From Cheilinus undulatus (taxonomy: Eukaryota; Chordata; Actinopteri; Labriformes; Labridae), in assembly GCF_018320785.1 (NCBI RefSeq), contig NC_054882.1, forward strand, positions 307,501 to 371,500: DNA of 64,000 nucleotides, read 5' to 3'. The notes under the pieces were generated by a model that did not search any database, was not told where the DNA came from, and saw only the letters and a list, made by a program, of their open reading frames with translations. The position numbers and the translations under genes were made by a program. Shown here one piece after another: positions 35,163 to 41,100 of the stretch; position 1 is the first letter of the stretch; each line of letters opens with the position of its first letter.

Positions 35163-38100
35163 CTGCAGGTCGAGACGGTCACATGATCATCACACACTAG
35201 AAACACGGACAGGTACCTGGCAGGAACAGTCCGAAAGAAGAGACTCACCTGACCCCAGGCGTACATGTTGTTATGAGTCTGAGACGGGTTCACTTTGGAG
35301 AGCAGGAAACGAGCCTGAAGGAGAAAAAACACCATCATCATCATCATCAGTTAACCAGCTAATTATCAATAATATGTTAACGAGCGTGCCAGCGCCCCCA
35401 CCTGGCTGCCTCCGTGCTCCGTGTCGATGTATCTGGGCATAGGGAAGCGAGTGTGCAGCAGCTCCTGGGCGTCGTCTACGGGAGCCTGGAGGAGGTGTTT
35501 GAAGTTCTCATACTCAGGCATGTCCTGATAACCGGCCTTCCTCCACTGAGCCACCGTCTGACAGACAAGGAGCAGGGAAAAATAACACACTGGATATAAC
35601 CAGCCTGGCAGACAGGGAGCAGGGAAAAATGTGCTGAGAATCTGACCCAGCCTGCTCTCTTTATTATTGATGTAAATCATCTGTTTGATGTTGGTGGACT
35701 TTCAGATTAAAGCTGATCAGGTTAAACATTAATCCTGATTTATTTAGAGTGCTTTTATTGTGAAGGCATCATAAAGACTTTTATTGTGAAGGCATCATAA
35801 AGACTTTTATTGTGAAGGCGTCATAAAGATTTTAATCACAGCAGTAGTGAATCATTCATTACCTTCATAACTGATCTGAGCTTTGAATAAACACAGCTGC
35901 TGTTTCACCTCCATGACAGATTATTAGCTTCATTAAACTCACTGATGTGCAAACAGCTGTTTAAGAGCAAAGGTCAAAGGTCAGTCTGCAGGTGTATATG
36001 CTGATGTAAAGGTAAGTGCAGACGTACCTCTCCGTGGTAGATGAGGATCTGGAAGAAGGTGTCCATCAGCAGGATTCTGTCAGGGAGGATGCTGCTGCTG
36101 TCCAGTAACACCGGCTTAGAGACACAGAGCATTCTGGTCAGGTTCATCTTTACAGCAGAGACTCCTAACTTCCTGTGTAAGCTCTATTTCTGCACGTTCT
36201 AGGACACCTCAGTAATGTGTGTGTATGTGTGGGTGTGGGTGGGGGGGGGTCCCGTATAAACAGAGCGCGTTGAGTGACATCGACTGCGGGTGTGTTTGGG
36301 TGTCTGGCTCTCCAGGTGAGCTCTTACCTCAGGAGGTCCGTTAAAGGAGTAGGCGTAGAGGACCGGCTGGATCATGATGAGAGCCTGGGTCAGGTCCTGT
36401 CTGTTAAACTGGTGTCTGTAGTACGAGCTCTCATCAGGACTGTTGTTAAACACCTGCAGGAACGGGGAGCGCCGCAGGTGGAACATGAACTAAACAAACA
36501 AACAAACAAACATCAGAACCAGCGCCGCAGGTGGAACATGAACTAAACAAACAAACAAACAAACATCAGAACCAGCGCCGCAGGTGGAACATGAACTAAA
36601 CAAACAAACAAACAAACAAACAAACATCAGAACCAGCGCCGCAGGTGGAACATGAACTAAACAAACAAACAAACAAACATCAGAACCAGCGCCGCAGGTG
36701 GAACATGAACTAAACAAACAAACAAACAAACATCAGAACCAGCGCCGCAGGTGGAACATGAACTAAACAAACAAACAAACAAACAAACAAACATCAGAAC
36801 CAGCGCCGCAGGTGGAACATGAACTAAACAAACAAACAAACAAACAAACAAACATCAGAACCAGCGCTGCAGGTGGAACATGAACTAAACAAACAAACAA
36901 ACAAACATCAGAACCAGCGCCGCAGGTGGAACATGAACTAAACAAACAAACAAACAAACATCAGAACCAGCGCCGCAGGTGGAACATGAACTAAACAAAC
37001 AAACAAACAAACAAACATCAGAACCAGCGCCGCAGGTGGAACATGAACTAAACAAACAAACAAACAAACATCAGAACCAGCGCCGCAGGTGGAACATGAA
37101 CTAAACAAACAAACAAACAAACAAACAAACATCAGAACCAGCGCCGCAGGTGGAACATGAACTAAACAAACAAACAAACAAACAAACAAACATCAGAACC
37201 AGCGCTGCAGGTGGAACATGAACTAAACAAACAAACAAACAAACATCAGAACCAGCGCCGCAGGTGGAACATGAACTAAACAAACAAACAAACAAACAAA
37301 CAAACATCAGAACCAGCGCCACAGGTGGAACATGAACTAAACAAACAAACAAACAAACAAACATCAGAACCAGCGCTGCAGGTGGAACATGAACTAAACA
37401 AACAAACAAACAAACATCAGAACCAGCGCCCGGGTGGAACATGAACTAAACAAACAAACAAACAAACATCAGAACCAGCGCTGCAGGTGGAACATGAACT
37501 AAACAAACAAACAAACAAACATCAGAACCAGCGCCGCAGGTGGAACATGAACTAAACAAACAAACAAACAAACAAACAAACATCAGAACCAGCGCCGCAG
37601 GTGGAACATGAACTAAACAAACAAACAAACAAACATCAGAACCAGCGCCGCAGGTGGAACATGAACTAAACAAACAAACAAACAAACATCAGAACCAGCG
37701 CCGCAGGTGGAACATGAACTAAACAAACAAACAAACAAACAAACAAACATCAGAACCAGCGCCGCAGGTGGAACATGAACTAAACAAACAAACAAACAAA
37801 CATCAGAACCAGCGCCGCAGGTGGAACATGAACTAAACAAACAAACAAACAAACAAACAAACATCAGAACCAGCGCTGCAGGTGGAACATGAACTAAACA
37901 AACAAACAAACAAACATCAGAACCAGCGCCGCAGGTGGAACATGAACTAAACAAACAAACAAACAAACAAACAAACATCAGAACCAGCGCTGCAGGTGGA
38001 ACATGAACTAAACAAACAAACAAACAAACAAACAAACATCAGAACCAGCGCCGCAGGTGGAACATGAACTAAACAAACAAACAAACAAACAAACATCAGA

Positions 38101-41100
38101 ACCAGCGCCACAGGTGGAACATGAACTAAACAAACAAACAAACAAACAAACATCAGAACCAGCGCCGCAGGTGGAACATGAACTAAACAAACAAACAAAC
38201 AAACATCAGAACCAGCGCCACAGGTGGAACATGAACTAAACAAACAAACAAACAAACATCAGAACCAGCGCTGCAGGTGGAACATGAACTAAACAAACAA
38301 ACAAACAAACAAACAAACATCAGAACCAGCGCCGCAGGTGGAACATGAACTAAACAAACAAACAAACAAACAAACATCAGAACCAGCGCCACAGGTGGAA
38401 CATGAACTAAACAAACAAACAAACAAACAAACATCAGAACCAGCGCCGCAGGTGGAACATGAACTAAACAAACAAACAAACAAACATCAGAACCAGCGCC
38501 ACAGGTGGAACATGAACTAAACAAACAAACAAACAAACAAACATCAGAACCAGCGCCGCAGGTGGAACATGAACTAAACAAACAAACAAACAAACAAACA
38601 AACAAACATCAGAACCAGCGCTGCAGGTGGAACATGAACTAAACAAACAAACAAACAAACAAACATCAGAACCAGCGCCGCAGGTGGAACATAAACTAAA
38701 CAAACAAACAAACAAACATCAGAACCAGCGCTGCAGGTGGAACATGAACTAAACAAACAAACAAACAAACAAACAAACAAACATCAGAACCAGTGCCGCA
38801 GGTGGAACATGAACTAAACAAACAAACAAACAAACAAACAAACAAACATCAGAACCAGCGCTGCAGGTGGAACATGAACTAAACAAACAAACAAACAAAC
38901 AAACAAACAAACATCAGAACCAGTGCCGCAGGTGGAACATGAACTAAACAAACAAACAAACAAACAAACATCAGAACCACCGCCGCAGGTGGAACATGAA
39001 CTAAACAAACAAACAAACAAACAAACATCAGAACCACCGCCGCAGGTGGAACATGAACATGGACCAGGGACAGGTGAGTTCTGGGATGTGGGTCACCTGA
39101 GGGTAGAGGGAGAAGGTCTCTGAGAACCTGAAGGAGTTTGGGTCGTCTTTGTGATAATCTCCAAACTTCTGACACTAAAAACAAACAAACAAACAACCAT
39201 TAGAATCAGGACATGTTTACATCCTGCGATCCTCCTGAGTTAACCCTTCACTCACCAGTCTGATCAGCTGTCTGTCCAACCAGCGCAGAACATCAGGACC
39301 CTCCTCTGTCTCCGCTCGGTACACCGCCAACCTAGCCATCAAGATGGCCGCCGCCTCCTGGTCAAAGGACGCTGCGATGCTCTGAATCTGAGTCTGAGCG
39401 TCTGCCCAACTGGGGGGAGAGAGGGAGGAATAAATTTATGAATTTGAATCTTTGAAACTGTTTCGCTTTAGCAGTGACAGTGATGGATCTCCAGACAAAT
39501 AAAACCTTTGAACTAAAATAAGATTTATCTTGAGTTAGAGAGAATAAAGAAGGTTTATAGAGAATAAGATCTTTAAAACCTTTTTTCTCTATAACCTTCT
39601 TCTAAGTGTTTAAATGAGTCAGACTAAGAGTAAACCAGTTCATCTCTGGGTCAGTGTTAGTGTGTGTTAGCATGTGAGCAGTCGTACTTCCTGGCTGTGG
39701 TGGTGACTCGGATGCGTCTTTGTCCTGATGAGTGTTGGTACTGGGTGACGAACTGGATCGCTCCTCGTCCTCCCTGAGGGATCGGAGCGTTGTGCTGAAA
39801 CAAAAAACACGCCAACATTAACCAAAGAGTTTACAGAGCAGGCTCAGACATCCAACACTAACCCAGGTTATTATAGAGCAGGGAACATAGAATTACCCCT
39901 GGCAGATTCACCCCTCATAGATTTACCCCTCATAGATTTACCCCTCATAGAATAACCCCTCATAGATTTATCCCTCATAGAATAACCCCTCATAGATTTA
40001 CCCCTCATAGAATAACCCCTCATAGATTTACCCCTCATAGAATAACCCCTCATAGATTTATCCCTCATAGATTTACCCCTCATAGAATTACCCCTCATAG
40101 AATACCCCTCATAGATTTACCCCTCATAGATTTACCCCTCATAGATTTACCCCTCATAGAATAACCCCTCATAGAATAACCCCTCATAGATTTACCCCTC
40201 ATAGAATAACCCCTCATAATTTACCCCTCATAGAATACCCCTCATAGATTTATTCCTCATAGATTTACCCCTCATAGATTTACCCCTCATAGAATAACCC
40301 CTCATAGATTTACCCCTCATAGAATAACCCCTCATAATTTACCCCTCATAGATTCACCCCTCATAGATTCACCCCTCATAGAATAACCCCTCATAGATTT
40401 ACCCCTCATAGAATAACCCCTCATAGATTTACCCCTCATAGAATAACCCCTCATAGATTCACCCCTCATAGAATAACCCCTCATAGATTTACCCCTCATA
40501 GAATAACCCCTCATAGATTTACCCCTCATAGAATAACCCCTCATAGATTTACCCCTCATAGAATAACCCCACATAGATTTACCCCTCATAGATTTACCCC
40601 TCATAGAATAACCCCACATAGATTTACCCCTCATAGATTTACCCCAGACAGATTTACCCCACGTAGATTTTAGTTGGGTTCATGCCTCTCTTTGAATCCG
40701 TTCAGCCTCTTAAACACTGTGATGCCTTCAGGACATTTCAGTATAATCCAGCTTTTTTATATCATTTAGCGTTTTCTCTGAGCCACCGTTTCTCTACAGC
40801 AGGAGAGAAAATCCAGTCGCCAGTGGCACTGCCCTGCTAGTGACCTGGACTCCTGAAGAAAGACTAGAGACTGGAGATCTAGACTGGAACCAACAGAGTC
40901 CCTGCCCTGGTCTATGGATGATGAAGGTGTGACTGGGACCAACAGAATCCCTGCCCTGGTCTATGGATGATGAAGGTGTGACTGGGACCAACAGAATCCC
41001 TGCCCTGGTCTATGGATGATGAAGGTGTGACTGGGACCAGCAGAGTCCCTGTCCTGGTCTAGCTGTGACATGAATAGGAGGACTGTGTCGGGTCATAAAA

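Follow-up and report, generated by a model that had tools for sequence, protein, structure and literature searches.

A minisatellite carrying an exon edge and 44 decoy splice acceptors in a sec23a intron of Cheilinus undulatus

The sec23a gene of the fish Cheilinus undulatus contains an intron made almost entirely of tandem copies of its own 3′ end, each joined to the first 22 nt of the exon that follows. The intron (39096–36490, 2607 nt, GT-AG) lies within a window of 64,000 nt (C18:307501–371500, in an assembly of 1.17 Gb and 46 contigs; coordinates below are window positions unless stated otherwise) and, apart from its first 38 nt, is minisatellite throughout. We consider it likely that this array is a minisatellite which has captured an exon edge, a ‘mirage’ in the amphioxus sense, that the last acceptor is the one mainly used, and that the array is probably without function. 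Exon-edge minisatellites are already known in amphioxus, and the striking feature here is that a single real site is accompanied by 44 complete decoys.

The gene was identified from the peptide of a minus-strand exon of the locus, which matches solved Sec23A chains (E = 5.7e-57) and confirms the identity given in the original prediction, an annotation made from the DNA letters alone. A tblastn search with human SEC23A placed the exons on the minus strand from approximately 58880 down to 35076, and a search for relatives of the gene among bacterial and archaeal contigs yielded none. Excising the intron restores the conserved Sec23A frame at 36490, and this, together with the GT-AG border, supports the earlier assignment of the functional acceptor to the last unit of the array.

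Tandem Repeats Finder (TRF) reported 45.4 copies, the 5′-most copy being partial, and a script count found 45 TTTAG acceptors after the donor, namely 44 decoys and one real site, in agreement with the approximately 45 copies predicted. As the spacing between TTTAG motifs never exceeds 65 nt and CTGAT also occurs 45 times in the intron, no unit lacking TTTAG has been overlooked. All 45 units carry CTGATG(TTTG)4-7TTTAG with a perfect tract, the branch-like A standing 23–35 nt from the AG with no other AG in between, and across the 64-kb window this pattern was detected 45 times on the minus strand and not at all on the plus strand. Unit lengths over the 44 intervals were 53 (n = 18), 57 (n = 9), 61 (n = 12), 65 (n = 4) and 52 bp (n = 1). 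A 71-base unit query gave 46 matches in the whole assembly, all at the sec23a locus, using a search that skips very common words. The array is far beyond chance.

The decoys are close to equivalent, with 43/44 identical to the real acceptor from −23 to +3 and the remaining one showing C to T at +3. With local sequence nearly constant over the 44 decoys, any preference among them should reflect position, transcription order or exon context, hence the proposed value of the intron as a natural test of acceptor choice holds. The expected unit content was accurate for CTGAT, (TTTG)n and TTTAG, but the first 22 exon bases, said to be present in every unit, are exact in just 24 of the 44 decoys; one base differs in 19 and an indel is present in one.

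Other roles for the repeated motifs were also considered. Recursive splicing was rejected, as all 45 acceptors read TTTAG/TT and none presents an AG/GT ratchet site. Potential donors were scored with a donor matrix, alongside 15 sec23a donors (exon 4 and the small exon after it were left out). The GT common to every unit (GAT/GTTTGT, 45 places) scores 1.0 and the best-scoring GT of the array 2.6 (two places, at the 5′ edge), compared with 3.3–12.5 for the gene's own donors. The unit donors are weak, though close to the weakest real sec23a donors, and tandem poison micro-exons are considered unlikely. The folds of four unit sequences were no stronger than those of shuffled versions (z 0.5 to 1.5). 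The preceding sec23a intron, of 81 nt (39175–39255), likewise ends in a TTTG-rich sequence (TTTGTTTGTTTTTAG), which is unamplified.

Variation among the units resembles that of a mirage, with units of 52–65 bp, shared variants, multi-unit copying (the unit-type run C4-T5-C5-A6 occurs twice) and a less homogenised cluster edge, where one variant is confined to the 5′-most full copy and the adjoining partial copy. No clean founding duplication junction was found at the 5′ edge of the array. The three commonest variants are CpG transitions, detected in 17/44 decoys (10 CAG, 5 TGG and 2 GCA), and these decoys encode R-to-Q, R-to-W or R-to-H variants. Substitutions in the intron-derived part of the unit number zero; all variants fall in the exon-derived 22 nt, with one unit's indel touching the border of that segment. 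Both CpGs of the unit sit in these 22 nt and the acceptor part has none, hence selection on the acceptor part was not upheld as an explanation for its uniformity. Three changes other than CpG transitions (units 1, 6 and 28) also lie in or bordering the exon part, so that neutrality is unproven and weak constraint possible, with no sign in these sequences of selection for the array itself.

If a decoy were used, the predicted product would meet a stop codon in all 44 cases, after nine residues in 43 of them. The single peptide originally predicted, FMFHLRRWF, would be the product of only 26 decoys, and unit 28 would read 114 residues before its stop. By the usual rule of nonsense-mediated decay, transcripts with a premature stop codon ahead of further exon junctions are degraded. 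Four introns lie downstream of the array in sec23a, and with stops in every product decay of decoy-spliced RNA would be expected. A stop upstream of later junctions, as in alternative sites of regulated unproductive splicing, was found for all 44 decoys. The introns implied by decoys 1–4 measure 96 to 283 nt, whereas splicing to the last two decoys would yield exons of 268 and 215 nt, compared with 162 nt for the real exon.

We suggest that the ancestral intron may have been approximately 80–100 nt long and that base 22 of the exon would have been linked, through a tandem duplication, to a position slightly 5′ of the branch-like CTGAT. In this region, which is rich in minisatellites and lies close to a contig end, slippage and unequal exchange could then have produced 45 copies, with the inner (TTTG)n tract varying by whole four-base units. 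Every copy may be able to recruit the 3′ splice machinery. Nevertheless, the real acceptor is most likely the one mainly used, as it alone is followed by the real exon, whose strong donor (GAG/GTAAGA, score 10.0) lies 162 nt away and would favour it through exon definition. Reverse transcription PCR (RT-PCR) on published mirages, which suggested regular splicing, adds some support to this view (PMC3087553). Any RNA spliced to a decoy would be removed by nonsense-mediated decay, and the net function of the array is probably none, with a small cost.

Several observations weigh against predominant use of the last acceptor. The intron implied by the first decoy, at 96 nt, is close in size to the neighbouring 81-nt intron upstream and to six other sec23a introns of 76–95 nt, and in a gene with such short introns intron definition, together with earlier transcription, would favour the first decoys. 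With a score of 7.2 and no G at +5, the donor of the array-bearing intron is of intermediate strength. Furthermore, the published RT-PCR sampled RNA at steady state, where products lost to decay may be absent. The intron directly downstream of the array measures 213 nt, and the fitted introns of the gene span 76 to 14,266 nt. Given the resemblance between the first-decoy intron and the one preceding it, leakage to decoys that is masked by decay is plausible.

The array is one of many local minisatellites, and its oddity is the captured exon edge. According to TRF, minisatellites cover 34,096 of the 64,000 bases of the window (53%), compared with 1,017 of 200,000 (0.5%) in 20 interior samples. 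Six more 10-kb stretches of C18, at most 0.51 Mb from the contig start, are 20–100% minisatellite (L033 100%; L034 33%, half of the stretch read; L035 67%; L036 60%; L037 20%; L038 41%). Among window arrays of at least 150 nt, only the sec23a intron array overlaps an exon, judged on approximate sec23a exon coordinates. The earlier claim that a minisatellite had captured an exon edge is upheld, since the unit spans the boundary, although the phenomenon is of a kind already published for amphioxus (PMC3087553, PMC3902484). A 52-bp minisatellite of approximately 16.5 kb extends from window 59113 to L037:1643, starting about 250 nt upstream of the truncated sec23a frame described below.

The first sec23a coding exon (58745–58960, minus strand) lacks the normal start and the first 33 codons, and an in-frame TAA stands immediately 5′ of ATG ATG GTG at 58862 (ATGATG, 58862–58857). 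Human residues 1–77 form a single continuous match on a sec23b-like paralogue on contig C4, whereas on C18 the match starts at around residue 26/34 and has TGA and TAA in its frame. No stop interrupts the C4 exon between its ATG and its end, and the TGA counted in the C4 match lies just past the exon end; the paralogue's intron at the position of the array is 169 nt and array-less. The missing N-terminal stretch could be found neither in the window nor in the 30 kb read upstream of it, where 100 bases of L037 are N. Later aligned sec23a exons are open, have GT-AG borders and are very close to human, hence any loss of the gene would be recent. The gene may encode a shortened protein or may recently have begun to decay, or else the assembly contains an error at its 5′ end.

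These observations bear on a reading in which sec23a is relaxed, decaying or producing a shortened protein from the ATGATG, so that the array is tolerated and splicing accuracy matters less. We regard this as a tentative possibility, compatible with our preferred explanation of a captured exon edge. The incomplete match on C18, the open C4 exon, the TAA directly preceding ATG ATG GTG and the long 52-bp array next to the truncated frame argue for it, but the intact and conserved later exons argue against, as does the possible local assembly fault at the 5′ end of the gene. A regulatory alternative holds that a sizeable fraction of transcripts is spliced to decoys, chiefly the first few, and destroyed, with array length setting sec23a output. 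That 43/44 decoys equal the real acceptor over positions −23 to +3, that decoys 1–4 imply short introns and that all 44 products would be expected to decay is consistent with this, but the array shows no sign of selection and the gene is 5′-truncated in this assembly, making such a decoy sink rather unlikely. The original suggestion that copy number tunes a gene of coat protein complex II (COPII) is weakened for related reasons, namely CpG-decay-like variants, a minisatellite-dense region, and a sec23a copy without its usual start and initial 33 codons, a part that the C4 paralogue has kept. A broader proposal, in which the spliceosome chooses among 45 near-identical acceptors with measurable loss to the first decoys, the length of the array works as an inherited brake on sec23a output and the units form a reservoir of missense edges for gene conversion into the real exon, is in our judgement unlikely.

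Tandem arrays whose units are nearly identical are easily misassembled, and one amphioxus mirage was aberrantly assembled in a draft genome (PMC3087553), so the true array might comprise only a few units. This is very unlikely, as the units differ in an ordered, non-periodic fashion, the assembly is near chromosome level and long reads, if used, could span 2.6 kb. Base pairing might instead guide the choice of acceptor: CTGCAGGTG in the exon would serve as a single selector for the units' CACCTG[C/T][G/A]G, and its hairpin with CACCTGCGG would mark the nearest, real acceptor. The exon start folds at −17.5 kcal/mol (dinucleotide-shuffle z −4.0) and pairing of CTGCAGGTG with the three most frequent unit forms gives −12.3 to −15.6 kcal/mol. 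However, 36/2000 synonymous recodings of the exon fold as low, so that the signal is modest. The pairing is also a consequence of the codons present, and a similar but weaker hairpin (−11.0) occurs in the paralogue, which has no array; hence we consider pairing-guided choice extremely improbable.

The array provides a natural experiment that sets a strong exon edge against nearness to the donor where 3′ splice sites of equal quality compete. Test constructs have been made in which duplicated acceptors compete, and their behaviour has been interpreted through AG scanning and competition, work with which Smith 1993 is reportedly associated. Those constructs likewise present equivalent acceptors in cis, chosen by position and context, but as a built pair rather than a natural series of 45. 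In the docking/selector pairing of Dscam, as in the sec23a array, a single element is able to pair with a whole series of repeats; Dscam differs in having mutually exclusive exons, of which the sec23a array has none, and any role for pairing in sec23a is hypothetical.

The closest published systems are those of amphioxus, where minisatellites spanning an exon–intron boundary were named mirages (PMC3087553). Mirages are reported in the globins BflGb6 and BflGb9, Adh3 and troponin C (PMC3087553, PMC3902484), with related imperfect repeats in PGBD5 (PMC3902484). Like the sec23a array, they are minisatellite-like tandem duplications across the boundary in which the outermost units of the cluster are spared homogenisation, and BflGb6 also repeats the 3′ end of an intron with the 5′ part of the next exon (PMC3087553). 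In contrast, the host is a fish and the 45 acceptors far exceed the 6 and 3 units of two BflGb6 haplotypes, extending the phenomenon to a fish genome at a copy number far above the amphioxus globin cases. Units also differ in size (52–65 bp compared with 150–160 bp in BflGb6 and 10–72 bp in Adh3), in sec23a the branch-like site, the tract and the AG are all intact in each unit whereas AG/GT occur in many but not all amphioxus repeats, and the inner TTTG repeat sets the sec23a array apart. Human internal tandem repeats in segmental-duplication genes similarly show minisatellite expansion altering gene structure, and those at boundaries may form novel introns, but they average 30-bp units and four repeats, half of the variable ones lying within coding sequence (PMC2812944). 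In the open-licence literature, with subscription papers outside the search, mirages were found for amphioxus only, and no vertebrate array of copied acceptors, no paper linking sec23a and a minisatellite and no classical study of duplicated splice sites was found; the accessible part of an earthworm metallothionein paper describes no such exon-edge array (PMC12783039).

Table 1. Features of the sec23a intron and its flanking exons, in window coordinates.
Feature	Position	Strand	Basis
sec23a exon upstream of array	39097..39174	-	Peptide match, tblastn, junction fit
Unique 5′ part of intron, 38 nt, donor CAG/GTGACC	39059..39096	-	Sequence reading, TRF
Minisatellite, full unit GGTTCTGATG (TTTG)4-7 TTTAG + first 22 nt of next exon	36468..39058	-	TRF, script count
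AG of first decoy acceptor, implied intron 96 nt	39001..39002	-	Script count
CTGAT of real acceptor, branch-point-like, A at 36513, 23 nt from AG	36512..36516	-	Putative branch-point role
AG of real acceptor	36490..36491	-	Junction fit
sec23a exon downstream of array, 162 nt, donor GAG/GTAAGA	36328..36489	-	Peptide match, tblastn, junction fit
Exon hairpin: CACCTGCGG (36480-36472, in repeated edge) and CTGCAGGTG (36459-36451, real exon only)	36451..36480	-	Folding

From their translations, the genes neighbouring sec23a are probably those for a somatostatin receptor and CLEC14A. Elsewhere in the window, a 36-bp repeat of eight copies (21796–22083) lies between frames reading as C-type lectin and EGF-like parts, two frames which are presumably both CLEC14A, and is probably a coding minisatellite.

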